Shown piece by piece: positions 1 to 56,593 of a stretch of 64,000 nt of DNA. The position numbers were made by a program, and so were the translations under genes. The notes under the pieces are model-generated. The model made no database searches, was not told the origin of the DNA, and saw only the letters and a list, made by a program, of their open reading frames with translations. How positions within the stretch are numbered: position 1 is the first letter of the stretch; every line of letters starts with the position of its first letter. Origin of the DNA: Chloranthus sessilifolius (taxonomy: Eukaryota; Streptophyta; Magnoliopsida; Chloranthales; Chloranthaceae); assembly GCA_021018995.1 (NCBI GenBank), contig CM037590.1:103665097-103729096 (forward strand). Reading direction: 5' to 3'.

Positions 1-21
1 GGGAAATTTAAAAGTTTAAGC

Positions 22-296
22 TATTGATCGATCAATGAGGTAATTGATCGATCAATAAGGCATATTGATCGATCAACTGATCTGGTGATCGATCAATTTT
101 GCTCTGACAAAGTGTGAAGAAAAAGGAGGTATTGATCGATCAATGAAGGGTGTTGATCGATCAATAAAGGCTATTGATCGATCAACTACCTCTGATTGCT
201 TGTGAAGTAAATTGAGAGTATTGATCAATCAATGGGGACATTGTTCAATCAACAAGGATGATTGATCGATCAATAAGGGTGTTGATCGATCAATCA
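22..296. repeat. Array of TTGATCGATCAA palindromes
   Basis: About ten copies of ATTGATCGATCAAT or close variants, each a perfect or near-perfect palindrome, separated by 12-40 bases of unrelated sequence. It is not a simple tandem repeat: the motif is kept while the spacers differ. It lies inside the LTR, upstream of the acidic frame. Confidence 0.9.
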
Positions 297-1090
297 CCCC
301 TTTTTTTGTCCTATTTTATTTGTGGGAATTGAATGCTACTGGACACCGCGCCAGTTGACTTTCTGACATACCTGACACATAGTTTACTATATTTATGGTC
401 TACGATCAGCCCTTGACGCTTTAAAAAGCTTTGGATTTGCTTAGAAAGAGGTCTGACCTGAGGTAGGGGAAAACCAACCTAAACTATTTTTTACTATGAT
501 TTCATGATTCTTGCATACCTGCACCCTAATTTCTATTTTAACAAGCATGTTAGCATATCATAAATTCGTGTTATATCTTATTCCTATTTTCTGATTTTGG
601 ATTCTGAAACCTGCTCCTGATTTCTGCTATCTGATTTGTGAGGTCTATGTGTGTATGTGATTTGATGATTTAACCAGATGATCCCCACCGACTCGGCGGT
701 ATATCCGTGCCTGGCACACTTGTGCATCTGCTTTGTTAATCCCTCGGCACAATTGCACTCCATAGATGAGGCATTGTTGCACCCTAAAATTATTCATGTG
801 AACGACGATTGGTTGGGGTTTCCTGTCGGTAGATTCCTGATTACTCCGTGCTATATATTCACGGGAGTTTTTAAAGTTAGAAAACATATATAATTTAAGT
901 CACTGATTATATATTTGCATAACATCTGTTTCTTGTTTAAAAGCTCAGTACTTGATTTGATTTATTTTATTCACATGTTCTGATTTGATTTCCTGCTTTG
1001 AGATATCATGTCCTGCATATTTAATTCATTTTAGTTGGAATTCTTCTATTGAGCTTAGATGTAGCTCACCCTATTTCATTAACATTTTAG

Positions 1091-1203
1091 GTTCTGAGGC
1101 TAGAGTTCCAGGCACCGAGAGTGACCCTGACTACCAGCCTGATCTAGAGGCTGAGACTGAGGACGAGGAGACTGACGTCGAGGCGGACGATTTTTATCCA
1201 TAG
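1091..1203 (+). other. Short acidic reading frame in the LTR
   Basis: After a pyrimidine-rich stretch ending in CATTTTAG, an open frame runs to a TAG at 1201-1203. It is dominated by Asp and Glu (for example DLEAETEDEETDVEADDF). Matching acidic frames occur at the same relative place in three other LTRs here (3458-3561, 12440-12575, and 54481-54578 on the - strand). The AG just before the frame fits a splice acceptor. Whether it is translated is unknown. Confidence 0.5.
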
Positions 1204-1415
1204 TCTGGGTACACTAGTCTGTTACTTTTGAGATTGTGTATAAACTTTGAATTATTGTGTGCCTGGTGGCCACTTCCTGTATTTATTTATGTAGATATTT
1301 TACTTTTCTTGTATTATTATACATTCTATAGGAACCACTATCAGGAACCATTGTTTGGGTGATGGATGTCCATCACTAGTGGTTCTTCTTGGTTCCTTTT
1401 TGGGAATATATATTC

Positions 1416-1420
<5 letters not shown>

Positions 1421-1475
<55 letters not shown>
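1421..1475. repeat. (TA)n microsatellite
   Basis: About 55 bases of uninterrupted TA dinucleotide, inside the LTR and after the acidic frame. Confidence 0.97.
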
Positions 1476-1478
<3 letters not shown>

Positions 1479-2039
1479 GTTTTGTTTATTACTTCTTTCT
1501 ATTTGCAAAGCCTTATGTGATGACTTGATCTACCACTGCTGGACAGTGTCTGCTTGATTTCCGCTATACGAGCAGACACTTTGTGATTTATCCTGGGGAT
1601 CATCCAGAGTATGATGTTGATGGCAAGGATTTTCAGGCGCGGAATTCCGGGCTGTCACAGAAACCCTAAAGACTTTAGAGAAGAATTTCTATATCTACCT
1701 TTCTAAAACATTTCTTTTAGAAGATCGGTGAGATGTTGGCATTTATTCTCAAGCGGCCTTCGCCTCCTAGAATCATCATCATTGTTGGAATCTCGATCTA
1801 ATCGTGGTGATCAATCAATCTAGGTATGGAGAAATCATGCTTTCCATTGAACTTAAAATATTATTTTTTAAATAGATTTTTGTGCAAATTAGTGATTTTA
1901 TTTCATAGATAATGATGGGATGATTAAATGAATGCATGCTATGATTAATGATTTTTAATGTTAATAATGTTAGATTAAAAAGAAATTAGAATAAATTCTG
2001 CCATGTGATTTGATGTATTTTGAGGCATGCTCACAGGTT

Positions 2040-2640: not shown

Positions 2641-2871
2641 GCAGTCAGATTTTACATTCAGTTTGCCTCACAAAAAGGTGTGTTTAAATGTTAATGTTTA
2701 TATGTCATATTTATACTCATATGTTCTTCAATGCTACATTCCATGATTATATTATACACACTTTAATATTATATGCTTTGATTGTATTCATATGCATCCT
2801 AACGTCTTATGATGATCTACACAATACACAAACAAGACACGTAAAATACGAAATGATAAGTAAGGATTAAT

Positions 2872-3235
2872 GAAACATTAGACCCAACATCTTATACATG
2901 ATGGAGTCTAAGAAGGTATTAGACCCAACGTCTTGTGCTTGATGGAGTTTAACTAAATATGATTAAGAAGCATTAGACCCAACATCTTGTACATAATAGA
3001 GTCTAAGAAGGTATTAGACCCAACATCTTGTTTAAGATGGAGTCTAACTAAATAAGAATATGATAAGCATGATTAAACTCAACGTCTTGAGCGAGACAGA
3101 GTTTGACATGTAATAAATGATATGATTGATTAGACCCAACATCTTAAGCATGACGGAGTCTAACTAAATAAGTGATAAGTATGATTATGACCCAACGTCT
3201 TGAGCGGGACAGAGTCTAACGTGCATTAAATGATA
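2872..3235 (+). repeat. Degenerate tandem repeat around TTAGACCCAACATCTTG
   Basis: Seven copies of a unit containing TTAGACCCAACATCTTG followed by a GATGGAGTCTAA-like end, with unit lengths of about 41-65 bases. The start (TTAGAC...) and end (...GTCTAA) are inverted copies of each other, so each unit could fold. It lies between the palindrome array and the acidic frame of the same LTR. Confidence 0.85.
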
Positions 3236-3457
3236 AGAAATATGAAATTAAAAGAAATAATGCATTCATATAATATTGATATATATATTTATGTTCAGTT
3301 CATTTCAGCTTATTGAGATTATACATGCCACTTACACACATACATGAAATATATAGAACTGTTCATATAGCTATGATTGATATTTTATGTTTCAATGGAT
3401 TACATGTCTGATTCATGCAAGTGTAAACTTACACTCCTTGTTAATGTGGGTGACCAG

Positions 3458-3561
3458 ATGAGACGGGTGTCCCTAATGACAACGTATGGGTCTATGGCGA
3501 TGAGACAGCACATGGTGCTCAAGAAACTGAACTGAATGACGATGATGGCTTCATGGCCTAA
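3458..3561 (+). other. Short acidic reading frame in the second LTR
   Basis: An open frame with many acidic residues ends in ETELNDDDGFMA and a TAA at 3559-3561, about 280 bases before the LTR end. It is the counterpart of the acidic frames in the other chromovirus LTRs of the window, but shows little residue identity with them beyond acidity. Confidence 0.4.
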
Positions 3562-3856
3562 TTATTTATTTTTCGTCTAGTTATTATTATTAGTTTTAAA
3601 TAAATTAGACATTGATCAGTTAGTATTTTATCAAGACCGTTTATGCTTTAATCATGTTGGATTTGTTATTGGAATAAGAACATTATCATGAGTTTTATTT
3701 TGATTAATTAATATTTTAAAGAAATTTTATCTTCCGCTGTTTAAGGTGCTTTTATCATCTTATTATATTTTTATGGTTCACGATACGAAGGTACGGCCTA
3801 AGATTTTACAATCAAGAGGTTGTGAGATCACGGGTCGCTATAGTTAAATCCTAACA

Positions 3857-5022: not shown

Positions 5023-7974
5023 TTGTCATTCTTGGGTTTTGATCAACTCTGGATCTACTCCTTGATTACACCAAGTTTCATTTCTAAAATCGGAGCTAAG
5101 CCCGTTCCACTAGACAATATGATTATGATTTTTATGCCATCAGGAGACGTGACAGTGGCATCTAAAGTTTATAAAGCTATGATCTTAGTAATTGGAACAC
5201 ATGATTTACCTGCAGATTTTGGGCTACTCAGATTCCAAGACTTTGACATAATCCTCGGCATGGATTGATTGGCAACTTATCACGCCTCAGTTGATTGATT
5301 TTCTAAAGTAGTCGTCTTCCGACTGATTGGGAGTCCTTCGTTCAAATTTTATGGTATTAAAAGGGGAGGAGCAGCCCTACTTACTACACTCGCGGTGATC
5401 GTGATGAGAAAGCATACCCCTCAGTTATTCCTATCGTCAAAAAGTTTGTCGATGTCTTTCAAGAAGAATTACCTGGACTTCCTCTTAACCGAGATATAGA
5501 GTTCAACATTGATCTCGCGCCTGGTACCCTACCGATTGTGAAAGTTTCGTACCGAATGGCACCAACAGAACTAAAGGAATTAGATATTCAGTTGCGAGAG
5601 TTGTCTGATAAGGAATTTATCCGTTGTAGCGAGTCGCCATGGAGTGCACCGTTCTTATTCGTAAAGAAGAAAGATGGCTCAATGAGACTCTGTATTGATT
5701 ATCGGTAGCTGAATAATGTCATTGTAAAAAATTGATACCCTCTTCCTCATATCGATGATCTATTCGATCAATTATAGGGTGCGACTTACTTTTCGAAATT
5801 AGATCTCAGGTTGGGATATCAACAATTGAAAGTCAGAGCAGAAGATATTTTGAAGACTACTTTTGGGACAATACATGGGCACTACGAGTTCCGTGTTATG
5901 CCTGTTAGACTCATAAATATGCCTGCCCTATTTATGGACTAAATGAACCGTCTATTCAGAGAATTTCTCAACAAGTTCGTCGTTGTATTCATAGACGATG
6001 CTCTTATTTATTCTCATATGAAAGAAGCTCATTAGGATCACCTTTATATTATCCTACAGACTCTTTGTGAGCACAGATTGTACACGAAATTTAGTAAGTG
6101 TGAATTTTGGCTTGAGAATGTAGCTTTCTTGGGACATGTGATTTCCGCCACAGGGATTTCTGTGGATTCATCAAAGATTGAAGTTGTTGCGAATTGGCAA
6201 GCACTAAAGAATGTCATTGAAGTAAGAAGTTTTCTCAGCTTAGCTGGATATTATCGTAACTTCGTGAAAGGATTATCTCATTTAGCATTCCCACTTATTA
6301 CGCTAACCTGTAAGATCAACAAATTCGAGTGGACCGATCAGTATGGGCAGAATTTTAATTTTTTTAAGCAGAAGCTCACGACAACTCCCATACTCACTTT
6401 ACCTTCTAGACTTTGTGATTATGAAGTTTACACGGATGTCTCGCACCAGGGACTTGGATGTTTGTTGGAGCAACATAAGAAAGTCATTGCCTATGGCTCG
6501 AGATAGTTGAAAACGCATGAGAAGAATTACCCGATTCATGATCTTGAGTTGGCAGCAGTCTTTTTTTTTGCACCCAAGATTTGGCGCCACTATCTATATG
6601 GTGAGTCTTTCAAGATTTATACGGATCACAAGAGCTTCAAATATTTATTCTCTCAAAAGGTCCTGAACTTGAGGAAGAGACGATAGATGGAGTATATGAA
6701 GGACTATGATTGTTCCATTAATTACCATTCAGGTAAGGCAAACGTAGTTGCTAACGCTCTAAGTAAAAAATTCTCAGGACTACTAGCAAGTTTGAAAGCT
6801 TGGAAGTCGCTAGATGAGATTGCCCGGTTGGATGTGAGACTTGACAGAATTGGAGAAAGAGCATACCTAGCTAGAATGATGGTCAAACCTACCTTTGTTG
6901 ATCGTATTAGAATCGAGTAACCCCTAGATCCTGAAGTTTCAAAAATTATCGGATAGTTAGCCGAAGGGCCCTAAACTGGAATTTTTTGTGTATTGGCGGG
7001 ACCCTCCTATTTAGAAAAAGAATGTATGCTCCCAATGTTGCAACCTTGTAGAACGAGATTCTCAAGGAAGTACATAAATCTGGGTATTCGATGCACCCAG
7101 GTAGCACGATGATGTACCAGAATATTCAAAGTTATTATTGGTGGTCGAACATGAAGAGAAAGATTACCGAATATATTTCGAGATGTCTGGTTTTCCAGCA
7201 GGTGAAGTTGAACCTTAGAAGAAATTTGGTCTTTTTCAGCCTTTACCGATTCCTGAGTGAAAGTGGGAAAACATCTCTATGGATTTCATAGTTGGACTCT
7301 CGATAACGTCAAGGAAGCATAACGACATTTGAGTTATCATAGATAGATTGACTAAGTCGGCACATTTTCTACCTTTTAAGAATACTAATAGTTGCGATAA
7401 ACTTGTTGAAACATATCTGAAGGAAATAGTCAAACTCCATGGGGTTTTTGTGAGCATTGTGCCAGACAAAGATACGAAGTTCACCTCTGATCATTGGAAG
7501 AAATTTTAGGAAGTAATGGGTACGAGACTAAATTTTAGTACAACCTTCCATCCAGAAACTGACAAGTAAACTGAAAGAGTTATTCATATCATAGAAGATA
7601 TGCTTTAAACCTGCATGTTAGATTTCTGAGGTAATTATGCTGACCAACTTCCTTTAATCAAGTTTTCATATAATAACAGCTATCAAGTTAGCATCCAGAT
7701 GCTTGGGCTGAAACTCGTACAAACCACGACCGAGAAGGTTAGAGTTATCCGACAGAAGTTGAAAGTACCTCAGTACCGTCAAAAAGTCTATGCCAACAGT
7801 AGAAGATGCTTGATAGAATTTGAGATTGAAGATTTGGTTTGCATCCATGTGTCACCGACTAATGGAATCATGCATTTTGGAATGTGGAGAAAACTAAGTT
7901 CGAAATACGTGGGACCCTTCGTTATCACAGATCACATCGGCGAGGTGGCTTACCAAATTTCAATTCTGACATAG
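5023..7974 (+). pseudogene. Chromovirus pol remnant (PR-RT-RH-IN)
   Basis: Protease-like sequence (about 5023-5268, ending FQDFDIILGMD) is followed by reverse transcriptase (about 5440-6060, with [16 protein letters not shown]-type sequence near 5660), the RT/RNase H junction (6078-6506, FLGHVIS and [15 protein letters not shown]), RNase H, an integrase zinc-binding part (about 7080-7210, HPGSTMMYQN and YWWSNMKR), and the integrase core and C-terminal part to about 7974 (KLSSKYVGPFVI). Domain order and motifs are standard for plant Ty3/gypsy elements. Many breaks; non-functional. Confidence 0.85.
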
Positions 7975-8230: not shown

Positions 8231-8262
8231 CAGGTACGTAATTTTTTAGGACGAAAATATTA

Positions 8263-8275: not shown

Positions 8276-8924
8276 TGTAACGACCCGAATTCTCTTAAAT
8301 CTATTTATTGGTGTTAGATGTGTTTTGTACTATGCAAGGTGTTAGCGCTCCACACCAGAACCTACCCTATTTTAGAAAATACTATTTCAGTTACGTAACC
8401 CTATTCTCTTTTCTTATTCTAATCTTCTTAAGAAATCCTAGCCAACCCTTATTCTTTTCTTTTTTTCTTCTTAAGAAATCTTAGTCGTCACAACTTTTCT
8501 TCTTCAACTCATCTCTTCTCAAACTCCCTAATCTCTTCCCTAAAATCTTTTGTGTGTTCTTCCATAAGAACCATCGTGATTTATTTTACGATCAAGATCG
8601 AGGAGGAAGAAGGAGAAATCTGGGACTGGCTATCCTGTGGAACATTAATCTTTTCACCCTATTCGTCGTTGATCTGCCGTTCATGCTTTAAAAGATGGTA
8701 CTCGTCAATCCATCTTGTTCTTCTTAGATTTCGTCGCGTAGGATGCGTTTGATCGCATATCGACGGACAAAATAAAATAAACCTTATTTTATACTCTTTA
8801 TAATATTATTTTAAAATGAGTAAAGTGGCTAGCCCTAGATGAGATTGCATATAATCTAATCTTATTTATATTTTTTCTAATTTTCAAATCCTATTTTCGA
8901 AACCCCAGAAACTGTGGAATTTTT

Positions 8925-9357
8925 AAAAATCGATCGATCAATTTTCTATGTTCAATCGATCGATTCCAGGCAGAGCAAAAAGGGTATATTTCTTCACTCA
9001 GTCGATTGGTTGACTTTCTTTTTTCGATTGATCGATTCTGGACCAAGTTGACTTTACATTTTCTTTTTGCCTGACCAATCAATCAATTCCAAGTGGTGAT
9101 CAACCAATCATACATCAAGACCATGTCATTCTTACATATATATATTTACTCCTTTATTTTCGATCAATCGAGCGTAACTCTCGATTGACCGATTCCGTAT
9201 GGAGACCATTGTATATATATATATATATATTTGCTTTCATTTTCGATCGATCGATGGCTAGACTGATCTATAGATTCTGAACCATGCCGATAGTCCTCTT
9301 TGCTTTATGCTCGATCGATCTATTCTTATACCTGATCGATCGAATATGGACAGAACC

Positions 9358-9392
<35 letters not shown>

Positions 9393-9515
9393 CGATCAAT
9401 CGATCCCAATTTCTGATCTATCGATTCTGACCCGAATTGAGTGGCATATATATTTTAATTCAATTCGACTGATTCCAAAACTGATCGATCGATTCTCGTC
9501 CAAATTGACATCAAT
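8925..9515. repeat. Array of TCGATCGATT-type motifs
   Basis: A dozen or more copies of ATCGATCGAT and variants (TCGATTGATCGATT, CGATCAATCGA), spaced by unrelated sequence and mixed with short TA runs (about 9210-9231 and 9359-9388). It sits about 650 bases into the LTR. The array in the - strand LTR at 54094-56593 sits at a similar depth. Confidence 0.88.
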
Positions 9516-9539
9516 CTTTACCTTATAAATTTACTTTAT

Positions 9540-10685
9540 TCACGACCAAAACTTTAATGCATCCTTCGATCAATGGTCTTGATTTACTTAACCTTTAAAT
9601 GACAATATTTTCTATTTATACATTCTAATTATAGTAATCTATATATACCAATTTTATCGCTTCAACCCGACCTTTTCGATAACACGAAGACTAAAGAATT
9701 CGATACCCTCATAAAAATCGAACTCTGACCTTCACGTTCTTGAAATCATACTAATAACTACCATATTTTATATTTGTATTGAGGTGATATGTAAATAAAT
9801 ATATGTATAAACGTAGGAAAATTTGGATATAAATCTTTATTAAAAGTATTATAGTTCTACACTTTCATCTTGATCATGATATATGAGTTATGGACATGTT
9901 TAGGTCATATGTACGGGAGTGTGTAAGATTATGCCTACGCTTGAACATAGTGATTCGCTGAGATGGTATCGAAGCGAGAAATATATCGTATTCATATGTC
10001 TTATAACTCATGATCGTATGGGACAATATGACGAGTAGGGTGAGTACGAATTCGGTGAAGCCTCGTATACGGTGGCATATGCGGTGACTCTATGACTCAG
10101 AGTTTTAATATAATAGGATAAGATATGAGATTCAACTCTTAAGCCTTAGTTGTGGCAATATCTCTTTACGATCACATGAAGCTCAAAATGTAGGTGTCCA
10201 TGAACGGATATAACCCCTCTATAACAGTATGGAACCTCTATGGTAGTAAGGTGTCTTCACTATCACACGAAGTACATCCAGATTAGTACGAAACATTTTC
10301 CTTGGAAAGCATGATTCATTAAAGTTATCGCACTATAGCTCGTCCTATATGTAAGTTGTAAAAGTATGTTATAATATGAATATATAAGATAAGATAAATT
10401 ATGAGTATGATAATAAAACACCGTTGTATAGGCCAGTATAAGATTAAAATTTTAGTCTATACATGTCGTTCCTTGTGTAGCCACCATAAGGGCAATAACG
10501 TCTTACAACAGAAACGAGTCTCTGGGAGATTGTATGAGTTTGTTATGAGTTACGTTTGGTCATATCTCTTTATTAAGCTAGATGGGGTGTATGAGTATGT
10601 TATGGAGGTGATCAGTCACATAATTTATCATTTTATCACCCTTAACTCAGTGTTGCTAGTACTTAGTTTGCTACTAACAACTTAC
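9540..10685. other. Anonymous LTR interior
   Basis: No protein similarity or clear repeat was found in this stretch. The 95-codon open frame near 10401-10688 has no recognisable motif and is taken as chance. Confidence 0.4.
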
Positions 10686-12075
10686 TGATGTGCAAATAGT
10701 AAAGATAAACAGTAAAAGAGAGCCTAAATATTAATATTCATCAAAATAAACTCAAAAAATTATAAGAAAGATGATTAAGTGTTAAAGACAATTCGTCAAC
10801 AGCTGAAGGCTGAGAAATCGTAATTCTTCAAAAAAACGATTCTTCAGAAGCGACATAAAAGAAAAAGCGATTATTTGAATAGAAAATCGTCTAGTATGAA
10901 AGCCATGAGAAGATAGAAAATCATGATTTACGATTTTCCAAAAGAGGCTATAAAGAAATGAGAAATCGTGATTTACGATTTCCCAGAATATAAGGCTTTC
11001 TTATTGCAGATATTGCTACTGCTGATCACTTGAGAACTATCACCGCCATAAACAGAATTAAAAAATCTCTTACATTAGAAGTTCAGCTGATCACGGATCT
11101 AATAAGATTGATGAAGATTGATGCTGAAGAACTCTACGATTGTTATCAAGGAAAGAAATCAGGAGCGCATCAACCGTGGAAAGCAAGGAAGAATAAAATT
11201 AAGAATTAAAGTTATACTAGGATACTTTTATTTTTAGTAATTTCTTTTGATAGAATTAGAACTTGTAAACCGACTCCTTATGATCTATAAATAAGAGGGC
11301 TCAGTATAGGAATAATCATCGAAGAATTTCAGCATCAATTGACGCCTAAGGTTGAATTTTCTTTCGATCAGTAGTGTATATTAGTTAAAATAGATTAGAT
11401 ATCAGAGGTTCCACAAGAGCAATTGACGACTGCAATTGAGTGCTGAAGATTATAGTAGATATCTGTAATTTCTCAAGAGCAATTGACGACTGCGGCTGAG
11501 GGGTGAAGGATATATTTTACTTTATTTTCTAGATTAGGTTTTATTTTCTTTTATTTATTGTTTTGTAAACATCTCCAAGTTTTAATTTGAATTGACTACT
11601 CAGGTTAGAATTTGCAGATTAGTTTAACGATTTTTACTTTTCTATCATCAGTTTTCTAAGGTTTGATTGACGCCCAGATTTTAGAAGTTGTTGATTAGAT
11701 TAAATCTATATTGATAAGATCTTAGACTTGATTAACGACCAATGCTAGAAAACTAGAAATATGGTATAATGATACTGTTTAAATTCATAAATATCCGATA
11801 GCTACAGATTGGGATTGACGACCTCAATCGGAAGAAGGATTAGGATTTATTTTTTTGTACTTTAGTTTAATAAAATTCTTTTATTCATATTTCTCAAGTA
11901 GATTAGATCTTAATAATAAATAATAGTTTTTAAAATAAGGATTTAAATAGAAGATAGAAATAGGAGATAAACAGATAACAAAGTTCCTCATGGGAACGAT
12001 CTTATGCTAGTACTATAATTTTCATTGTGCGCTTGCAATATGTTAAGACTTGAATTTAATATATACACATAAAAA
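10686..12075 (+). mobile_element. Probable LTR-type insertion inside the chromovirus LTR
   Basis: This block differs from the surrounding LTR. It has its own hairpin array (10800-10985), six ATTGACGAC-like repeats (between 11337 and 11820), and near its end CTCATGGGAACGATCTTATG followed by TTTCATTGTGCGCTTGC. That resembles the leader junction of Tat/Athila-type LTRs, where a sentence like CCTGTGGATCGACC precedes a TGCGC-rich end. I could not fix its borders or find a target duplication, so this is inference. Confidence 0.35.
10800..10985. repeat. Hairpin motifs with arms GAAATCGT / ACGATTTC
   Basis: Two close copies (about 10917-10940 and 10963-10983) have 8-9 base arms AAATCGT and ACGATTT around GATTT. 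Further half copies (ATCGTAATTC, AACGATTCTTC, AAAATCGTC) lie between 10810 and 10900. It is a third motif type, distinct from the ATCGAT arrays. Confidence 0.7.
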
Positions 12076-12439
12076 GTAATGATCAGGAGGGCGTTATATT
12101 TTAGTGGTAAGCTACTTTGGTGACCCTCACAACGACTTTGGTACATGTCATATAGGATTTGTGAGTATGTTTGGTACGCCCATACGATTTAGAGACGCAT
12201 GCGCGAGAATAATAAGACATGTTTTGTTATGAGATATGGTGATGTACGTTAAGATATGAGTGTATCACTTTATCTTTCTGATTTTATTGATATATCATTA
12301 TTATACCTCACGTGATACACCCACAATACACCTGAGTAGAATACGGTGGATTGGTAGTGGATCTACTGAGTTTGCGTGACTAAGTAAACTCATCCCACGA
12401 AAAATTATCACCTGCAGGTGATTATAATGGCAGAGTTGG

Positions 12440-12575
12440 TGCGGGCTATTCTGATCATTTTGATGTTAATTTCGTTGACCCTGTAGACACTAAGTACTAA
12501 GAGCCTTTAGAGGGTGACGCCGCTGGTTATTCGGAAGACCATGATCCAGACTACGATCCTAATGCCGACTATTGA
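12440..12575 (+). other. Acidic frame near the 3' end of the chromovirus LTR
   Basis: An acidic stretch including HDPDYDPNADY ends at a TGA at 12573-12575, about 310 bases before the LTR end. It follows ACCTGCAG and GGCAG, either of which could be an acceptor. Counterpart of the frames at 1091, 3458 and 54481(-). Confidence 0.4.
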
Positions 12576-12889
12576 TACTTGTGGTTTCGGTATTGAGATT
12601 CGTTCTGTATGGTTATATTTATTTATTTATAGACTCGTAAAGCGGATTTATTTCCGATTTCTATTTCGTTTTTATTGTGAGATGTTTCTTTGATTTTTAT
12701 CGCATTTATTCATATTTATAGTTGTCTTTATGTCTCATTCTTTTGTTGTTGGGTTCACGGATTTTAAGGAGCCATATTTGCGCGAGAACTTTGATTATGT
12801 GTTTGTCCGCCTAACGTATCTGCGACACGTGCAGTCATGAGTTGAAATTCTAGGCCCTCGGGATGGGGTAGAATATCGGGTCGTGACAG

Positions 12890-16450: not shown

Positions 16451-16824
16451 AATAGACACCCAAATGTAGCCCAAGGCATGATCGACACGTATTTCGAAGA
16501 AAGGCGTACACTCGAGCTTCCGAAAGCACTTCTCGAACCTTTAGGAATGAACCCAAGCCCTTAGGAGACACAGCCAGACCCTTAGGATCAATTCCTAACC
16601 CTGAGAGAGCCCAACCAGGCCCATAGAACCCGACTTGAACCCACCGTGACAGCCCATGGAAAGAGGCCTGCCAAAGTTCACTTGGACATCTGTTGGAGCT
16701 GAGTCATATATCATTGGAAAGTAAAGGTTCTCAGCTTTCCAACGAGCCAAGAATCGTCCGATTTCGAGTTGTACATCAAAAGTTATGCGATTTAAAGTTG
16801 ATGAAAAAATGTTAGAAATTACAC

Positions 16825-16995
16825 ATGCATACATATTATGCACGCATATGCAATTTTTCGCAAAATTTACACATGCGTGCATAGTATGCACGCATGGCCA
16901 TTTTAGCTTTTGCTACAGAACCCGCCAGCACGGCGGTTCAACTTCCCTAGTTCTGAAGACCAGAAACTGTACATTCGTGCATAATATGCACGCAT
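16825..16995. repeat. Three long palindromes in the 5' LTR
   Basis: Copies at 16825-16847, 16873-16895 and 16973-16995. Each is 23 bases, with arms ATGCGTGCATA and TATGCACGCAT around one central base; the middle copy is perfect. The starts are 48 and 100 bases apart. Confidence 0.92.
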
Positions 16996-17272
16996 GCACA
17001 TTTTCTTGATTTTCGTGAAAAATGACGGATTTTGACTTTTGGGTTTGACCTTTGGACCATCTCAGATTTCTGGGTGTGTTTCTTTAGGATTGTTTTAACC
17101 CTTTAGAATCTATGTATCACCCTTATGCCATTTAAGTCATCAACCAATTATCCACCCTTGAATCCAATTTCCTTCTTTTCAAGCCCCAGAAAACCTAGAA
17201 AACCTTAGATTAGGAATTACCTAATTGCTAACCCGATTAGCTCTTAAGTACCCCCTTAACCACCTCTCCTTC

Positions 17273-17278
17273 TATAAA
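17273..17278 (+). promoter_or_regulatory. TATA box of the 5' LTR
   Basis: TATAAA in a CT-rich setting, also present in the 3' LTR at 33413-33418. Confidence 0.65.
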
Positions 17279-17698
17279 CAGAGAGCCAGCCCCTCCCCCC
17301 TTTTGTTTAAACATCTTTTGAAATTTTCAAAAGAAGAAACTCTTGCAAATTGTCTCCCCATTGCCTAAAATTTTCACCTTGCCTCCGAAGCTCCAAGCTT
17401 AGTCCATCCCATACCTTCACTTCCATCCCATACCCTCTTAGCCATGGCAAGCTAAGACCACATCTTCACCCATCGTGCTATCAAAAGCTCTTTTGTGACG
17501 CATTCATGCGAAGGTCTAACCACCGGTGCTACAAGAGCCCGAGAGTTTTGACTCTCTCCTCTATTCCTCTACATTTTTTATTTGTTTTTCCTCTATCATA
17601 GGATTTGTGCAGTTATGCCGCCGAAATTTTGATATTTGCGGAGAGCTCAATAGGATCGTGGTGCCTTCGGGCAAGAAGAAGTGTCGCTCACTTTTTCA

Positions 17699-17703
<5 letters not shown>

Positions 17704-17764
<61 letters not shown>
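17704..17764. repeat. (TA)n microsatellite in the 5' LTR
   Basis: About 60 bases of TA, matched at the same LTR position by 33786-33844. Confidence 0.97.
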
Positions 17765-17766
<2 letters not shown>

Positions 17767-18024
17767 TAACATAGACCTAGCCATAGTAGAGACCATTTAC
17801 ATGCGGATCGACCGGGCGCCTAACACTTTCCCGATTGATAATCGAAGCCCCTACTACAGATCCTTCTGCGTTGACCGATAAATCGGAAACATATTTTACA
17901 CTTCGGTGCTTATATATCGATTTTGAGGTATCCCGGGACACCAAAAGCTCCAGGTGGCGACTCCATCTTTTTTTAAGAGAGGGCATCGTCGCGACGGACT
18001 CGCGATAGCCCACGATTGCATAGA

Positions 18025-18119: not shown

Positions 18120-18410
18120 TTTGTTTATGTTGCTTACTTACCCCTACGATTCCGCATTTTTTTATGTTTATCCCAACGATTCTGTCATTTACTGCCTTAA
18201 CCATTTGGCGGGCCTACTTGATACATTTTTTACTTATCCCGACGATTTCGTCCTTTACCACCTTAGCCGTTTGGCAGGTTACTTGATAATTTAGTGTCAT
18301 TTTCCGTCATTTTTACCACCTTAGCCGTTTAGCAGGTTACTTGATAGCTTAGCTTTCTTTTCTATTATTTTACCACCTTAGCCATTTGGCGGGTTACTTA
18401 ATAATTGAGA
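18120..18410 (+). repeat. Tandem repeats in the leader of the element
   Basis: Four or five degenerate units of about 50-60 bases, built on TTTACCACCTTAGCCGTTTG followed by GCAGGTTACTTGATA. Confidence 0.8.
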
Positions 18411-18883: not shown

Positions 18884-19053
18884 TGTTGCGTACATAATTT
18901 GTACGCATATACAAAAAATCTGAAACTTTGTTCATGCGTGCATACTATGCACGCATAGATAAAAAAATCCGGAATTTTGTACATGTGTGCATTCTATGCA
19001 CGCATAGTCAAAAAATGCGAAAATCAGTACATGCGTGCATACTATGCACGCAT
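18884..19053. repeat. The same long palindromes, in the leader
   Basis: Copies at 18934-18956, 18983-19005 and 19031-19053, and a decayed one near 18884-18906. They have the same arms as the LTR palindromes, with starts 49 and 48 bases apart. The sequence between copies is unrelated to that in the LTR. Confidence 0.9.
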
Positions 19054-19413
19054 AGGCTAATTTCTGATGCAGCCCGAATTTGGGGCCTTTTTCACTAATC
19101 CATGAATTCCTCGCTTGTGGGTTTTGACATTTCTGACGCTTTCTATATTTTAAAGTATCCAAAACGCTCTCGCCGGTCAAAAGAGGTCACCCTCTTATTG
19201 ATTCTTTCAAGAGAATGCGTCACTGCGTGAAAATTCGTGCCTTTAGAGATCAAGGGATTTCGTCCTTTGATTCTCAAGAAGGGTATTCGGGTCCCGCCAT
19301 AGGATATCTCAGGGGTGTAAAAGCCACCCGAAAAGGGAGTTTTATGGCCCCGAAAAGCACCACATTGTGAGAAAAAGGAAAAGGGAAAGAAATTCAAGAA
19401 AAAAAATTCGTTT

Positions 19414-32600: not shown

Positions 32601-33782
32601 TGTAGACACCCAAATATAGCCTAAGGCACGATCGACACGTACTTCAAAGAAAGACATATACCTGAGCTTCCAAAAGCACTTCTCGAACTCTTAGGAGATA
32701 CCTCTAAACCCTTAGGATCCATCTCTAACCCTTAGAGAGCCCATTCAGGCCTATAGAACCCGACTTGAATCGATCGAGACAGCCCATGGAATGAGGCTGG
32801 CAAAGTTCACTTGAACATCTCCTAAATATGAGTCCTATACCATTATAAAGTAGAGGTTTCTAGTTTTCTAACGAGCCAAGAATCGCCTGATTCCAAGTTG
32901 TACGTCAAAAGTTATGATGATTTGAAAGTGATGTAAAAATGTTGAAAATTACACAAGAGTGCATAGTATGCACGCATGTGGAATTTTTCGGAAAATTGAC
33001 ACATGCGTGCATAGTATGCACGCATGCCTATTTTGGCTTTTGCTACAGAACCCGCCAACACGGGGGGTCAAATTCTTTGATTCTAAAGACTAGAAAATGT
33101 ACATGCATGCATAGTACGCACGCATGCACATTTTCTTGATTTTCGTGAAAAATGGTAGATTTTGACTTTGGGGTTTGACCTTTGGACCATCGCAGATGTT
33201 TTGGTGCATTTCTTTAGGACTATTTTAACCCTTTAGAACCTATGTATCACCCTTTTGCCATTTAAGTCATCAACCAATCATCCACCCTTGAATCCAATTC
33301 CCTTCTTTCCAAGCTCTAGAAAACCTAGAAAACTTTAGATTAGGGATTACCTATTTGTTAACCCCACTAGCTCTTAAGTACCCCTTTAATCACCCCTCCT
33401 TCTATAAATAGAGAGCCAACCCCCCTTGTTTAAGCATCGTTTGAAATTTCCACCTTGCCTCCCAAGCTCCAAGCTCATACCCCCTTAGTCCATCTCATAC
33501 CTTCATTTCCATCCCTTACCCTCTTAGCCATGGTAAGCTAAGACCACATCCTCACCTATCTTGCTATCAAAAGCTCTTTTGTGACGCATTCACCCGAAGG
33601 TCCAACCACCGCTATTACAAGGGCCCGGGAGCTCTGGCTCTCCCCTCTATTCCTCTACTTTTTTTATTTATTTTTCCTCTATCCTAGAATTTGGACTGTT
33701 ATGCCCCCGAAATTTCGGTATTTGTGGAGAGTCCAATAGGATCGTGGGGCCGTCGAGCAAGAGAAGTGTCGCTCACTTTTTC

Positions 33783-33848
<66 letters not shown>

Positions 33849-34095
33849 CTGGCCATAGTAGAGAACCGCTTATGAGCGGGTCGATCGGGCGCCTAAAACT
33901 TTCCCAATTGATAACCGAGGCCCCTACCCAACTGCCTTTGGCGTTAACTGGTAAATCGGAGTAATATTTTGCACTTCGGTGTTTATATGTCGATTTTAAG
34001 GTATCCTGCGATACCAAAAGCTCCGGGTGGTGACTCCATCTTTTTTTAAAATAATGCATCATCGCAACGGACTCGCGAGAGCCCACGGTTGCACA
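32601..34095 (+). mobile_element. 3' LTR of the Tat/Ogre-like element
   Basis: Starts TGTAGACACCCAAAT and ends CACGGTTGCACA. It carries three palindromes (32955-32977, 33003-33025, 33103-33125) at the same spacing as in the 5' LTR, TATAAA at 33413-33418 and a TA run at 33786-33844. It is followed by ACGTC and then by LINE sequence. Confidence 0.87.
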
Positions 34096-47118: not shown

Positions 47119-49173
47119 GGCATAACACCCGGGATACAAAATAAAAAGGAAGAAAAGACATCAAAACAGGTTAAATTCTACAAGTCCAAAAATTATTACA
47201 AAATTCAAAATAAAACAAAAGCCCCTAAATACCTATTTATAGGAAAAGCCCCCTTCAACAAAATGCGACAAGTGCCACATTTCTAAGCACCCCCCATCTA
47301 ATTAAACCTAAACCATACACATGCCCCTTAAAAGAATCACAATCCCTAGTAAACCTAGATAAGCTAATAATCACACAATACTTACCCCTCAAGAAACACA
47401 AATCAAAAGCAGGTTAGATAAGCCAATAGGATTAAAACATCTAACATCCCTCTAGAATTCTAGAAACTACACTCACACACCTTTAACAAATGTCACCTTA
47501 AACTAGACCTCAAACTAAAATAAGACAAAACTCATACCTTAAACAAAACAAATGCCGAAAATTTCTTAAAATGAAATTCTAACACATCTATAACCTTAAA
47601 ATTCCCAAATAAAACCTTGAACTCTCCAAATAAAATCAAACAAAATCAAAATAAATGCCCCAATAAATCTAGTAAAATCAAAATAAATGCCCCCAACACA
47701 TCTAATAAAATCTAATAAATCTAATAAAATCAATGCCCAAATAAATCTAATCAAAAATAAATCTAATAAATACCCAAATAAATCCACAAAGATAAAACTA
47801 AACTAAGTGAAATCATGAGAGATGCAAAATACAAAAAAGGGAACACTATTGCAGCTAAGTCACCCCATGACAACCTACTGCAAATTAATGCCTTCACTGC
47901 AGTCAGACTTCTCCCCTGAAGTCCCATCGCATGCTCGTAAACATACTACTCCCTGCAGTCCTATCACAACCAAATCACCCCCCTTTTTGAGATGCTACCA
48001 CAAATAGCGTTCCACTGCAATCAAAGTTATCTCACAGAGTCTCATCGCATACTCACATCCGTTGCACAGAACAAGCCGACACTCCATCGTACATTCATAA
48101 ACGTATCCCGTCGCGTTGCAACTACAACCTGATCTCGTCACATACCCTAAGATCTGCCAAAAAAGAAAATGAACATAGCTTTCCCGTCGCATAACCACCA
48201 ATGTTCCATCACCGAAATCCCATCGTAGCCTATCGCAACACACAACCAGAAGGAGGAGGCTCAACCAAGTCCCATCGCAAAGAGGCGAACCTCCCTCCAA
48301 ACCTTTTACCACGACAATCATCATGTCCCATCGCGACGACTCCAGAATGCCCCATCACGCAACGGTCGCCAACAACAGAAACACACGACCACAGACATAA
48401 GAGAAGACAAATCCCTCTGATGTCCTATCACACCCATCAACTACCAAGTCCCATCGCGAACATCTCATCAAGCGATCTAAATGTCCCATCACACTAGCAA
48501 CCATCAGGCCCCGCTACAACAATCAGCGGAGGGGAAGAGCAGACCCCTGATGTCCCATCGCGTGACCCTGCACAATAGACACGATGAAAAGGGGGAAGCC
48601 AACCAATTTCCCATCGCAAACTGCACCCCTCCAAAAATGTCCCATCACAACACTCCCATCGGGATGTGAAGCAACATAGGAAGTCACCTTGACAATGCAT
48701 AAACACCAACAAGAAGGCTTTGAGTTCATGTGGAAAAATTCACACTAAAGCTCAGCAGCCTGAAGGCGACAAAGCCCATTGATACGAATGATGTGGTTGT
48801 GTGATTTTCATGCTTCCACAAGGATCTCAAGTCCCCTCAATGACTTTACCTCCAGACACTTTTGTCCCATTACATAACCTAACACACCAGGCAAAGGCGA
48901 CTCAAACCAGAGCGAGGAGTTGCCCGTAGTCCCATCGCAACACAACCACGGGAGCAACAGCCGACCAGTCCCACCGCAAGCAAAAGCCTCCCGCCGGCAA
49001 CAAATCAGGTAAATAAAACACCCCTTCTCCTACTCGATATTTTTTATAAAATATAGTTAGATGATGTTAAGTCAAACATTTTCAAAACCCGTCTCTCTCT
49101 CTTAACTCGCGAATCACTATAGTCCTCCCATAAGAGGCAATCATCAGTATTCGTCAAGAAGGTCGGGTCTACA
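47119..49173 (-). mobile_element. Possible LTR on the - strand with a TCCCATCGCA motif array
   Basis: On the - strand it would begin TGTAGACCCGACC at 49173, like the TGTAACGACCCG start of chromovirus LTRs, and end near 47119 in CCGGGTGTTATGCCC. It carries a motif array (47850-48990) and an AT-rich tandem of AAATCTAATAAAATC (47600-47790). No polypurine tract precedes the proposed start, and no internal domain is attached. Borders are inference. Confidence 0.35.
47850..48990 (-). repeat. Dispersed array of TGCGATGGGAC motifs
   Basis: At least fifteen copies of TGCGATGGGAC or variants on the - strand (TCCCATCGCA on +), for example near 47923, 48223, 48269, 48327, 48448, 48555, 48609 and 48942. 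The spacers are unrelated. Unlike the other LTR motifs here it is not palindromic. Chance open frames on both strands are side effects. Confidence 0.85.
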
Positions 49174-50084: not shown

Positions 50085-50510
50085 CACTCGCAATTTAATT
50101 GCACGCCCCATAGTTGGCATGCAATTGGTCCCACTTAGACCAGGACTATTCTCCCTGTGGGTCACCTTAGGAGTGGATTACGCACCTTACAGAGCGCGCA
50201 CAACCCAATTGCATGCCCCATCACTGGCGCGCAATTGGTCCAACATGGACGGTCCTTAACCTTCTAGAGGCCACCTTAAGACCCGATTGCGTGCTCAAAC
50301 TAGCACGCGCAATCGATCACGCGCGTTATACAGTGAGTGACCGACTAAGCCAGTTAGCCGGTCACTCACTGAGTCGGTCACCGACTCAGAGTGATTATAC
50401 GCCTAAGATGGGACGCATAGTCCGATTAAGCGCACCAGAAAGGGCACATAATCGGGTTGACCAGTTATTTGCACACCTCCTACAGGGCGCGCAATTACCC
50501 GAATACCTAT
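50085..50510. repeat. Array of GCGCGCAATTG motifs with hairpins
   Basis: Repeated CAATTGCATGCCCCAT-CACTGGCGCGCAATTGG-like units (50085-50135, 50190-50240), TTGCGTGC/GCACGCGCAAT pairs (50285-50325) and GGGCGCGCAATTACCC near 50487. Between them are two hairpins: GTGAGTGACCG/CGGTCACTCAC (50334-50370) and CTGAGTCGGT/ACCGACTCAG (50369-50389, one-base loop). It lies upstream of the TATA box of this LTR. Confidence 0.75.
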
Positions 50511-51129: not shown

Positions 51130-51690
51130 TAGTAGTAGGAAAGTCAAAATAATTAGATTTCTAACATCAGTCGGATACATAAAATAATTAGACTTCTAAT
51201 AGATTTAGGATATCTAAATTGATTAGACTTTAAATAGGAGTAGGATATTTAAAATAATTAGACTTTTAACAGAATTAGGATATCTAAATTAGCTAGACTT
51301 CTAATAGGCTTAGGATATCTAAGTAAATTAGACTTCTAATAGAATTAGGATATTTGAGTCAATTAGACTTTTAGTAAAAATGGGATATTTAAAATAATTA
51401 GATATTTAACAAAATTAGGACACCTAAGTTAATTAGAGTTATAATAGAATTAGGATACTTGAATTAATTAGAGTTCTAATAAAATTAGGATGCTTGGATT
51501 AATTGGACTTTTAATAGAAGTAGGAGACTTAGAATAATTTGATTCCTAGTATGATCAGCAGACCAAGTTAATTAGACTCCCGGTAAGATTAGGAGATTAA
51601 ATTAATTGGACTCCCGGTAGGATTAAGAAAACTAAAGCAATTAGACATAGAGCAGGATTAGGAAAGCTACATAAACTAAACTCCTAGGTG
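51130..51690. repeat. Tandem repeat of an AATTAGACTTCTAATAGAATTAGGA unit
   Basis: About 13 units of 38-45 bases (AATTAGACTTCTAATAGA then ATTAGGATATCTAA), becoming more diverged towards 51690. Located in the 3' half of the LTR. Confidence 0.9.
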
Positions 51691-53470: not shown

Positions 53471-54093
53471 TGAAGTGTAGGCATGTAAACTCGGGTAGTT
53501 GGCAAGTGGCAATATGAAATGCAATGCGTGTCCGCTTTATCTATAATTTAAGTTGGTTTGAAATCCAATGTAACTGATAAGACTGGTCACTCGGTTCGCC
53601 TATTCCCTGGAATTATCGTTTACGATTCTTGAGAACAATATTAACTCTGTGACACTTCGGTCCGTAGTTACTACGACTCGACTTTGATAAATCACGAAAG
53701 ATCATAAATCCATACGTTAAAGGTGATTATATTACATCAAAGAAGTCCTTACAATCGAATGCGTCCAACACGTCTTAGATTGTAGGGTACTCTCCTAACA
53801 AGGTTTTCTAATAATGCACATATGTTACAGGGTTTTGCTACAGATGAGTCGGTAGCACGACGGTGTCCATGAGGAGCTTAGTTAAGATTTCGGGGAGTTG
53901 ATGTGCATCCCATAAAAATATGTCCTCTTGTAGTGCCATCTGGCCATGATGAAGAATATGTACTCTCTCTCTTCTTGATTAAAATAGTTAATTATTCAAC
54001 TTGAGCTTCTAACTTAAAATCAGAATGCTGAAGAGTGAGAAGTGGCTTCGATTGGTTTTGGTCACGCTACTGGTAATTTCCACATATCTATTA
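53471..54093. other. Unassigned DNA between elements
   Basis: No coding or repeat similarity recognised. Confidence 0.3.
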
Positions 54094-54480
54094 TGACAGC
54101 CATGATTTTCACACCCGGAAACCTGTACCGTCAGATCACCCATAAGGCGATCCCAGAACTCACGAACACTTGATACATCAACACACAAAGCGGAAACAAG
54201 CATATATTCTAACTAAGCAAGTAAAGTCATCATAAAGAATTTAAATCTCCAATTCTAGTATAATGACAATGTCTAGATCACAACAAAAGACGGTTCTAAT
54301 CCAATACAAAACACATGGATAAAAAAACCGAACCGAACCACCAGTGACGACCAACTGTCACCCGAAACATGGTTCGCAAAATAATACCGTATTACATAAT
54401 TACATGCGTTCCAACAAAACTGACTGGACATACCAAACCTTACAAATAAATTTCAAAATAAACACACGCAGCTCTGCCCA

Positions 54481-54578
54481 CTAGAAGAATTCGTCAGGAG
54501 GGGGCTCAGTCTCCTCCTCTGGTATGTACTCTGGTTCCTCAGGATCAATGTCCTTAATACCCGCATCTACTCCTGTAC
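54481..54578 (-). other. Acidic frame in the - strand LTR
   Basis: After CGTCACAG the - strand reads GTGVDAGIKDIDPEEPEYIP then EEETEPPPDEFF and a TAG at 54483-54481. It lies 387 bases before the LTR end. Same placement and character as the frames at 1091, 3458 and 12440. Confidence 0.5.
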
Positions 54579-55117
54579 CTGTGACGTATAGTCGAGGGAT
54601 GACCTAATAGTCTAAGCTCAATAGAAAAACATAACTAACATGCAGATCTTCACATCACACATATATCTCATGACATAATCTAAAACATATTTTTCTTGCT
54701 AAGATTCACAATTTAAAAGTATTTAAATTGACACAAAACTGACATTTAATGCATATTTTAAGGCCACTAATCATGATTTCCAAAACTTGCACTTATAACA
54801 AAGAAACTTAAATCAATTACTTAAATACAATCCAAAGCATATATAACATCAAGAGCAACAAATATAGCGATAGGAACCCCAATCATCGTCGTTCAATGAA
54901 CTATTTTCACAAATGCCCAAACTCCTTCGAATGAGATGACTTGTGCCGAACGAAGTATTACTGCAGATCAGAAATCAAAGAACGGATATCCTACCGTACC
55001 ATAGCACAAAGGTTCGTTTCGCATGAATTCTTAAATCAAGGTGCGAAATTTAACTTATAGTTTATCACCGTGAATTGTGATAATTTATACTAGATTTGAA
55101 GTTTGAAATCTCAAAAC

Positions 55118-55264
55118 TCACACACACACATAGGGGATTCTTTCTGATCTCATACACACACATAGTTGATTCCTCACACACACATTTCTGATTTCACACA
55201 CACACACATAAATCTCTCTGAGTGCACATACACACACACTTTTCATATTTAAAATCATGAACAA
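55118..55264. repeat. Interrupted (CA)n clusters
   Basis: Five or six CACACACA runs separated by 15-25 bases with TTGATTC or TCTGATTTC. Confidence 0.9.
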
Positions 55265-55555
55265 AATTCATGCTTAATAAATAACAAAATTTATAAATCA
55301 CACACACTTCTATCACATCACAAAATCCATGCTAGTTGTAATCAAATACACATGTTACTAAGTTTTTCCTCCCTCAAAAGGGAGCTAAAACGAAGGTTCT
55401 TTTATTTTGATATAGCTCTCCTAGCACATACTCATGCTCACACCTAAAACACACAAATTCACATCCTGTAAGTCATTAATGACAAGAAATGGGAAGACCT
55501 AAAGTCCCCTCCAAGTCTGCTTACTAAAAATACACAAATCTCTGAATCTGTCTAA

Positions 55556-56020
55556 ATTGATCGATCGATTCTCAAACCCATCGATCGGCTTCCAAAATTG
55601 ATCGATCAAAATACATTTCGATCGGTCGGCTTCCTCAAAAACTTAACACATCTCTCATGTCACAATCCGATCAATTGATTCCCAAATCGATCGATCGGTT
55701 TCCAAATCAATCAATCGAATTCCATTTCGATCAATTGGTTTCTTCATAAAACCACATATTTCTGGTGACACAATCTGATCGATCGATTTCTTCATAAAAT
55801 CCTAACACGCTCACTATTTTCACAAACCGATCGATCAGTGTTCAAACCGGTCGATCGAACTCCAAAATCGATCGATCGATTTCACAAATCGATCAATCGA
55901 ATTTCACAAATCGATCAATCAAATTTCATTTTGATTGATCGATTTCTTCAGAAACCTTCACATTTTTGTCCTGTCAAAATCAATTGATCGGATACTTATT
56001 CGATCGATCGGTTTTGACAG
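55556..56020. repeat. Array of ATCGATCGAT motifs in the - strand LTR
   Basis: Around 18 copies of TTGATCGATCGATT, CGATCGGT, CGATCAATCGA and similar, with unrelated spacers such as TTCCAAA. It lies between the donor-like site (56166) and the acidic frame (54578). Confidence 0.88.
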
Positions 56021-56593
56021 ATTCTTTAGAAACACGGGCTTCTTCTTCCCAAACTCATTTTTTCTCAAATTTAACTCTTATTCTTCTAATTTTCCACTCA
56101 TATCATACTTTAAGACTAACATAACTAACATAACTATGAATCACCGAAAAACACAATTATGCTCACCTTTAAGTGGTCGATTCTTCGACACACGTGCTCA
56201 CACCCAAGAAAGGGTTCCAAAGTCGTAATTTGGGGAAATACGTCGATCTGAAATCCACGGACTTCACACAGAGCCTCAATCTTGCACACCCAACACTAGG
56301 TCTAGAGTTCTCCTTTTTCTCTCTTCTCAACAAATTCTCAACAACAAAGCAAAGGAAATGAATTCATTGCTTCCATTTTCCTTTATACTTAAAAGCTTAG
56401 CATTTGGGTGTAAAATCGTTACACCATACCTCGGTGTATGATATTCCATCTAATGGTCAATATCACCACGAACTCTAAACTTATCCTAACTCTTTAACTT
56501 ACTTTAATATTTTTATATTTTCAAGTGTGTGACCAGTTGGGCATGCCCACTGAGTCGGACTATTCGAAAGTCAAAAAATTTCGGGACCTCACA

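Follow-up and report, generated by a model that had tools for sequence, protein, structure and literature searches.

Arrays of short palindromic sites in long terminal repeats of Chloranthus sessilifolius: a putative promoter architecture

A 64,000-nucleotide stretch of the Chloranthus sessilifolius genome (assembly GCA_021018995.1, contig CM037590.1, positions 103,665,097 to 103,729,096 of the forward strand; hereafter, the window) contains long terminal repeats (LTRs) of retrotransposons, in or next to which lie blocks holding many copies of a short, mostly palindromic motif. A sequence-only reading of this DNA had listed these blocks and had proposed that their palindromes are kept while unrelated spacers change, that each family has its own motif, and that the trait is convergent. 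All blocks were recounted as sites on both strands with at most two mismatches, and the expectation was taken as the mean of 30 dinucleotide shuffles per block. LTR bounds were set by eye except where starts or ends are anchored by a polypurine tract, a pair alignment or a duplication; a polypurine tract precedes three LTR starts, at 8276 (+ strand), 49769 (+) and 56593 (-).

The first LTR fragment, L1 (1-1665, +), has its left part beyond the window and an end set by eye, and a 95% copy of it lies 10 kb upstream. It carries block B1 (22-296, +), with 11 TTGATCGATCAA sites, 8 of them exact, where 0.1 were expected. This array is clipped by the window edge and is the 3' end of a longer one; at least 24 sites are present in the analyzed kilobase of L045 (C7:103655418), which is likely the partner LTR of L1. 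Block B2 (2040-2640, +) is carried by the LTR-like stretch L2 (1666-3840, +; bounds by eye, start unclear) and has 21 sites against 0.3 expected. Only 5 of these are the exact palindrome TCAATCGATTGA, and 11 read TCAATAGATTGA, in which the arms are intact and the center is broken. Preceded by AAGGGGGGAGAA, LTR L3a (8276-12888, +; end by eye) is split by a solo LTR at 10609-12085 (+), which runs from TG to CA with a 5-bp duplication, GGAGG. In L3a lies block B3a (8925-9515, +), with 13 sites of the ATCGATCGAT type (2.2 expected; 4 exact), and the same type recurs in block B3b (55556-56020, -), within the - strand LTR whose start is at 56593 (17 sites against 3.0 expected; 4 exact).

Block B5 belongs to one element, Tat-like by eye, whose 5' LTR (16453-18022, +; TATAAA at 17273) and 3' LTR (32603-34093, +; TATAAA at 33403) are 81.5% identical. 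A 23-base palindrome is repeated in both LTRs (16825-16995 and 32955-33125, each with 6 arms against 0.27 expected) and again in the leader at 18886-19053 (+), downstream of the 5' LTR and not inside it, where four copies with a 48-bp period contribute 8 arms (0.3 expected). Block B7 (50085-50510, +), in the LTR starting at 49769, holds 8 GCGCGCAATTG sites (0.3 expected; 1 exact) and long hairpins. Ahead of the polypurine tract of that LTR, and thus outside it, lies block B6 (47850-48990, -), with 16 sites of TGCGATGGGAC (0.5 expected), a word that is non-palindromic, as had been stated. Block B4 (10780-11000, with AAATCGT hairpins at 10800-10985), in the solo LTR and followed by TATAAA at 11286, is weak: 9 GAAATCGT sites were found against 3.7 expected (top shuffle, 7), and 3 exact sites against 0. 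The TRIM-like element (first LTR 28250-29186, +; second LTR 29481-30410) was compared with 100 shuffles. Its GTGCC and GGCAC words together numbered 8 in the first LTR, where shuffles gave 3.0 on average and 8 at most, and 5 in the second, where 3.1 were expected; the opening 230 bases of the second LTR hold 5 (0.8 expected; top shuffle, 3), and the internal part holds 3 (0.6 expected). Spaced GTGCC..GGCAC hairpins numbered 1, 2 and 1 in the first LTR, the second LTR and the internal part, four in total, against 0.01-0.02 expected. The palindrome arrays are therefore real, and most of the listed blocks stand clearly above their shuffles. The evidence is weak for the AAATCGT block and weak to mixed for the TRIM-like element, B6 is non-palindromic, and a claim of palindromes for every block fails.

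Pfam matches were obtained for the coding parts of two of these elements: RNaseH (6036-6503) and a Tf2-1-like SH3 domain (SH3_Tf2-1, 7630-7971), upstream of L3a, for the element with the LTR at 8276, and RVT_1 (reverse transcriptase, 24466-25683, between the two LTRs) and RNaseH_2 for the B5 element. We take these models to mark Ty3/gypsy elements. By their coding sequence both elements are accordingly classed as Ty3/gypsy-type, which places them outside the Sirevirus genus of Ty1/copia.

The symmetry of the arrays was controlled by scoring Tandem Repeats Finder units with a period of at least 15 against shuffled units; part of the rows in the window were compared with a simpler shuffle only. 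Among the listed blocks this test reaches only B1, B2, the B5 leader and B3b; no array of the listed words was returned by Tandem Repeats Finder at 8925-9515, 10780-11000, 16825-16995, 32955-33125, 47850-48990 or 50085-50510. Units at 22-294, 18922-19055 and 55668-55928, most of those at 2044-2538, and a 2.4-copy repeat at 62702-62803 were symmetric beyond shuffles; two B2 rows were non-significant against dinucleotide shuffles. The arrays at 3004-3239, 18168-18406, 19.7-20.0 kb, 32.3 kb, 41-47 kb and 51146-51625 showed no symmetry beyond shuffles, and rows at 2865-3054 were borderline (p 0.05-0.10). Beyond the listed blocks, window arrays of this period thus show no excess symmetry save 62702-62803 and the borderline 2964-3047. 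Two of these arrays also lie in array-bearing LTRs or LTR-like stretches. At 2865-3239 in L2, a 41-95 bp tandem repeat contains TTAGACCCAACATCTTGT...ACATGATGGAGTCTAA, an imperfect inverted repeat, with borderline or non-significant dyad scores; at 51146-51625, a 35-bp tandem array is located in the 49769 LTR, far 3' of its TATA box.

Both the words and the symmetry extend beyond the window. In the 2.17-Gb assembly, exact TTGATCGATCAA occurs 65,226 times (317 for the reversed word) and exact TCAATCGATTGA 64,441 times (79 for the reversed word), totals that are the product of LTR copy number and sites per LTR. The sequence-only reading had proposed that palindromic motifs be tested for over-representation. 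In a systematic sample of 200 kb, taken at fixed steps across contigs C2-C5 (20 loci), dyad p was at most 0.05 in 18 of 62 arrays, where 3.1 were expected. The binomial p of 8e-10 overstates independence, because the 18 arrays fall in 6 of the 20 loci, several of them within one array. The same sample contained 149 palindromic 12-mers that are not of low complexity, against 57-77 across five shuffles. At one sampled locus (L027), GAAGC and GCTTC words partly alternate at 11 bp. At another (L025), TCGACCGGTCGA-like (ACCGGT-like) sites are often spaced 19-21 bp apart; this word was chosen after looking and counted without shuffles, and its units fail the dyad test (p 0.36 and 0.11). At a third (L031, 570-6800), CGATACGTATCG-type palindromes extend across several short tandem units; exact CGATACGTATCG occurs 14 times in the 200-kb sample, and a GATACGTATC-like stretch, related to this type, is found near position 13100 of the window.

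Copies of the leftmost LTR and of the LTR-like stretch next to it were sought in the assembly. For B1, the array-free LTR flank (300-1390) served as bait and gave 5771 first-look candidates; 40 places were scored, one of them the window itself, and 20 were taken for comparison by order of score. Loci L001-L024 had been chosen by exact motif matches and are a biased sample, so the B1 conservation test was redone on the flank-chosen copies. The B1 diversity set comprises 21 LTRs, 20 of them obtained through the flank bait without the motif. L053, a copy whose array is mostly lost, was kept in the diversity, site-spacing, TATA and L045-reference comparisons and was excluded from the indel comparison only. 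For B2, the LTR flank 2660-3560 gave 1748 first-look candidates genome-wide and 40 places.

The sites are phased. In 20 B1 LTRs, 451 sites were counted with at most three mismatches, 280 of them exact, and 314 of the 352 neighbors within 30 bp are spaced 20 or 21 bp; in B2, 47 of 80 such neighbors are spaced 22 bp. These distances correspond to about two turns of B-DNA. In both blocks Tandem Repeats Finder gave unit periods of 20-24 bp and higher-order periods of 67-98 bp, with related spacers, and B1 spacers of 8 and 9 nt alternate and recur in arrays. Because the spacers are partly homologous, the arrays have grown by tandem duplication. The spacers can thus be called unrelated only in part, and the objection that the sequence-only reading had itself foreseen, namely tandem duplications with homologous spacers, partly applies to B1 and B2.

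TATA boxes are interleaved with the B1 sites. Across 25 LTRs, TATAWR is present in 41 of 45 spacers of 45-75 nt (8.9 expected by shuffle), and in 39 of these 41 it starts 4 bp after the last motif; gaps of 16-44 nt contain it in 2 of 48 cases (4.2 expected). As TATAWR is concentrated in the long spacers, mostly at one offset, clusters of B1 sites alternate with TATA cassettes. TATAAA also follows directly after two further arrays of the window, at 9524 (B3a) and 50508 (B7).

Divergence was compared among motif, spacer and LTR flank. In the B1 window array, motif divergence was 0.11-0.13 and spacer divergence 0.38-0.55. Over the 21 LTRs, non-CpG columns gave a motif diversity of 0.050, against 0.077 for the flank and 0.177 for the spacers (motif below flank, p=0.003; motif below spacer, p=2e-4), and with all columns the values were 0.071, 0.091 and 0.184 (motif below flank, p=0.02). 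The B1 motif contains CpG, so faster decay of the motif would be expected. With L045 as the reference, 18 of 19 copies had a lower divergence in the motif than in the flank, the exception being L053, and the differences summed over the 19 copies were 228/4751 for the motif and 766/7903 for the flank. LTR pairs at 67-80% identity (the 6 pairs, out of 15, in which at least 400 bp aligned) differed by 5.6-7.8% in the motif and 15-23% in the flank; most loci in these pairs were picked by motif matches, and L1 of the window was not. Short indels per aligned pair in 19 LTRs were 0.00045 in the motif against 0.00435 in the flank, insertions within motifs being incompletely counted. Judged from these comparisons, the B1 motif persists as its spacers and the LTR flank diverge, and is strongly conserved in this one family; that the motif might diverge as fast as its spacers, the other foreseen objection, is false for B1. 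The B2 motif likewise diverged less than its spacers, both in the window array (0.10 against 0.33, p=5e-7) and between loci in one pair (0.167 against 0.396, p=4e-9). Within the arrays of L045-L064, spacer diversity is about twice that of the flank (0.177 vs 0.077), for which unit exchange between arrays or misalignment is possible.

Pairs of LTRs from one insertion are a different matter. In the B5 pair, divergence was 0.130 in the 23-base palindrome and 0.139 in the flank, and in the pair L1-L045 it was 4/132 in the motif, 7/138 in the spacers and 17/379 in the flank. Both pairs look as if neutral decay followed insertion, and the equality in the B5 pair says only that. LTR-pair divergence was dropped as a selection test, since the two LTRs of one insertion decay neutrally.

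These data bear on a neutral minisatellite account, by which words prone to form hairpins undergo slippage or template switching as the element is reverse transcribed or replicated, so that palindromic units multiply with no selected function. It would explain the 20-24 and 67-98 bp periods, the alternating 8- and 9-nt spacers, the 11 copies of the center-broken TCAATAGATTGA and the absence of excess motif conservation in B2 against flank and in B3b against spacer; it also predicts, through unit exchange, spacers that evolve faster than the flank. However, under neutrality motif and spacer should erode equally, while the B1 motif lies below the flank in both substitutions and short indels, and TATA cassettes at a fixed offset also speak against it. 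We regard this account as unlikely.

The arrays are probably LTR enhancers or promoters composed of dyad sites for a putative dimeric DNA-binding protein, set two helical turns apart beside TATA boxes. Among the roles proposed by the sequence-only reading (binding sites, RNA hairpins, sources of small RNA), that of protein-binding sites in the DNA agrees best with the TATA cassettes and the 20-22 bp phasing. The arms of the palindrome are constant in B2, with a variable center (CG, AG, TT and others), and in B5, where all four bases occur at the center among exact copies; constant arms with variable centers fit a dimer contacting two half-sites. An LTR of this kind would hold many copies of a two-fold symmetric site on which a dimer docks, and spacing of about 20-22 bp beside TATA boxes would align many proteins along the same side of the helix, from where they would activate the element's transcription. 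The arrays would expand and turn over through tandem duplication. Copies without the motif would leave the active lineage and spacers would drift, so that selection on transcription would constrain the motif in the active lineage, and each copy would decay neutrally after insertion. The binding protein would most likely be an activator made by the host. In stress-responsive LTRs of the Tnt1 type, the activator arrays contain a motif that is bound by a host transcription factor and is needed for LTR activity.

Several results weigh against this promoter reading. With regard to TATA, the alternation was seen in B1 only, and the long B2 spacers that were inspected lack such a cassette; TATAAA lies some 280-300 bp from the B5 and B4 arrays; and part of each B1 array sits 3' of a TATA cassette. 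The CG at the B1 center is mostly kept rather than free (0.92 and 0.93). As to conservation, the B1 copies in the diversity and L045 comparisons are the best-scoring of 5771 candidates and hence close relatives, and the array alignments are possibly out of register, which would inflate spacer divergence. In the B2 pair described above, the motif (0.167) was no lower than the flank (0.183, p=0.6), and in the other pair covering the array the values were 0.094 and 0.138 (p=0.16). Motif and spacer diverge alike in B3b, and none of three comparisons was significant in the B5 leader. The claim that the palindrome is kept while spacers change therefore stands for B1, stands for B2 against spacers and not against flank, and does not extend to B3b or the B5 leader. 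The interpretation of the sequence-only reading is also weakened in that B1, B2, B3a and B3b, which have the ATCGAT core, may have a common origin and not count separately.

The relationship of these four was considered further. All are readable as TCGATCGATCGA plus CpG-type changes, with the B2 sites at 2601 and 2623 as intermediate forms. Eight LTR-like stretches were aligned locally under strict settings, with the listed arrays masked in all but the TRIM-like element, in place of a permissive alignment whose null ignored local composition and whose high scores are not used. A single 50-bp box, which scored 46 against a null maximum of 34, occurs in both L1 and the LTR carrying B3b. A high score between L3a and B4 reflects identical DNA, B4 being nested in L3a. 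Homology was rejected as the cause of the shared motifs, as outside the arrays there is only this one box, common to two of the four LTRs. A TCGATCGATCGA-like core common to LTR families that are hard to align would be either a very old conserved site or the same word chosen repeatedly. The statement that each family has its own motif thus fails for these blocks; it agrees with the existence of unrelated-looking cores (ATCGAT, ATGCGTGCATA and GAAGC/GCTTC), which makes recurrence across families likely. Independence of all the families does not hold.

A stronger form of convergence may be entertained, in which unrelated LTR families of one genome arrived at a shared promoter architecture: a family-specific dyad word, a lattice of one or two helical turns and interleaved TATA cassettes, each family having moved to a word of its own that would spare it cross-silencing or suit a private activator. 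Separate instances would be the ATCGAT families, the GAAGC/GCTTC words of L027 with their 11-bp spacing and the ACCGGT-like sites of L025 at 19-21 bp, the last two being putative LTR arrays. This proposal is tentative, and on balance unlikely.

A further alternative concerns the protein. In Arabidopsis VANDAL transposons, a family-specific short motif is arranged in tandem repeats of non-coding regions, turns over fast and is bound by the family's own VANC protein (according to parts of PMC5735166 and PMC10398659). By analogy, each family here could encode its own DNA-binding anti-silencing or activator protein, the array being a private target and motif and protein co-evolving. Family-specific motifs, tandem repetition and fast turnover are common to both systems, and the B5 motif occurs both in the LTR and after it. 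In contrast, the VANDAL motifs given in those parts, YAGTATTAY and AGTTGTCC/AGTTGTAC, are non-palindromic ("palindrom" is absent from the searched text of PMC5735166), and VANDALs are transposons with a known element protein. No candidate protein emerged here from a Pfam search of 19 of the 47 window frames of at least 95 aa plus one 36-aa frame: the matches were reverse transcriptase, RNaseH and Tf2-1-like SH3, with zf-RVT and DUF6040 below threshold, and the TRIM-like frames at 28215-28517 and 29959-30438 had none. We hold an element-encoded binding protein of this kind to be very unlikely.

RNA folding was evaluated for the listed blocks. Folding energies were far below those of shuffles for B1 (z -9.6), B2 (-7.9), B3b (-7.9), B5 (-6.1 and -7.9) and B7 (-8.5), weaker for B6 (-2.6) and B4 (-2.4), and ordinary for the TRIM-like stretch 28270-28470 (-0.62). 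By median energy in 110-nt windows, B1, B5 and B7 fall in the lowest 4% of the window and B3b at 14%; B2, B3a and B4, at the 32nd, 34th and 74th percentiles, are unremarkable. The palindromes might accordingly matter at the RNA level, through folds that give the transcript a structural signal or from which the host makes small interfering RNAs; in the Sirevirus LTR cis-regions of maize, palindrome clusters with low folding energy show an excess of small RNAs (Bousios 2016, as related in part of PMC10760457). Yet folding is to be expected of any palindrome array, which makes the z-scores a by-product; energies below -40 kcal/mol are reached by 26 separate stretches across the window, many of them outside the arrays; and neither a fixed 20-21 bp spacing nor a fixed TATA offset is required by RNA folding. 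A hairpin role fits some blocks, and the RNA hairpin was rejected as the sole common cause, given the ordinary values of B2, B3a and B4. It is an improbable explanation of the arrays. The strongest predicted RNA hairpin of the window, at 62601-62980, reaches -72 kcal/mol per 110 nt and is accompanied by an inverted repeat (62654-62758 / 62970-63078).

Downstream of the B1 array, L1 holds a short reading frame at 1093-1203 (+), in which an acidic tail is followed by a stop. Between the window LTR and L007, its differences by codon position number 5/3/14, with 9 synonymous and 8 non-synonymous codons; on these counts the frame looks coding. A Pfam search of this frame gave no match. By eye, similar acidic frames are present in the other three ATCGAT LTRs, at 3440-3565, 12410-12580 and 54488-54590 (-), one of them with an internal stop.

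The closest known counterpart of the promoter-like arrays is in Sireviruses, which are Ty1/copia elements. Passages of PMC2829016 describe Sirevirus LTRs with high-copy palindromic repeated motifs (RM boxes) upstream of the TATA box, with dyad symmetry, divergent flanking sequence, a core that is mostly CGG-CCG and, in some elements, extra copies outside the LTR. Many palindrome copies in an LTR are likewise found here in B1, B2 and B3b. A downstream TATA box is seen in the B1 cassettes, B3a and B7, is not seen in B2, and is 280-300 bp away in B5 and B4. Unlike the RM boxes, the cores here are ATCGAT, ATGCGTGCATA and GCGCGCAATTG; the RM box of Tnd-1, ACAATCGATTGT, is itself given in those passages as an exception to the CGG-CCG core and has the same AATCGATT core as B2. 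The two elements checked by their coding parts, that with the 8276 LTR and B5, are of the Ty3/gypsy type, and neither several alternating TATA cassettes nor 20-22 bp phasing appears in the Sirevirus passages of PMC2829016. Maize Ty3/RLG elements are generally without an obvious structure peak, according to the relevant part of PMC10760457, whereas the Ty3/gypsy-type LTRs here have one. Retand elements often have family-specific tandem arrays between pol and the 3' LTR (part of PMC11963269); these resemble B6, which lies before a 3' LTR, and, being outside the LTR, may cover B6 only. The short interrupted repeat cassettes (SIRC) of Arabidopsis are derived from miniature inverted-repeat transposable elements (MITEs) according to their authors, and palindromes and LTR promoters are unmentioned in the abstract of PMC10342631. 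Among the matches listed by literature title, none on palindromic LTR arrays concerned elements other than Sireviruses, in a coverage that leaves out most subscription journals and leaves absence unproven; a full-text search for four array words returned no retrotransposon paper by title.

The feature is thus of a known kind, and in the Ty3/gypsy-type LTRs of this genome the architecture of arrays and TATA boxes is unusually clear; as an observation the sequence-only reading is partly confirmed, and its interpretation is partly supported. LTR-promoter palindrome arrays were described as a Sirevirus trait, and Ty3/gypsy-type LTRs carry them in C. sessilifolius. Exact copies number in the tens of thousands in this genome, and the words can serve directly as bait for the putative binding protein, by which the drive of plant LTR promoters becomes testable. 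The contrast of motif, spacer and flank would provide a genome-wide readout of constraint on retrotransposon promoters.

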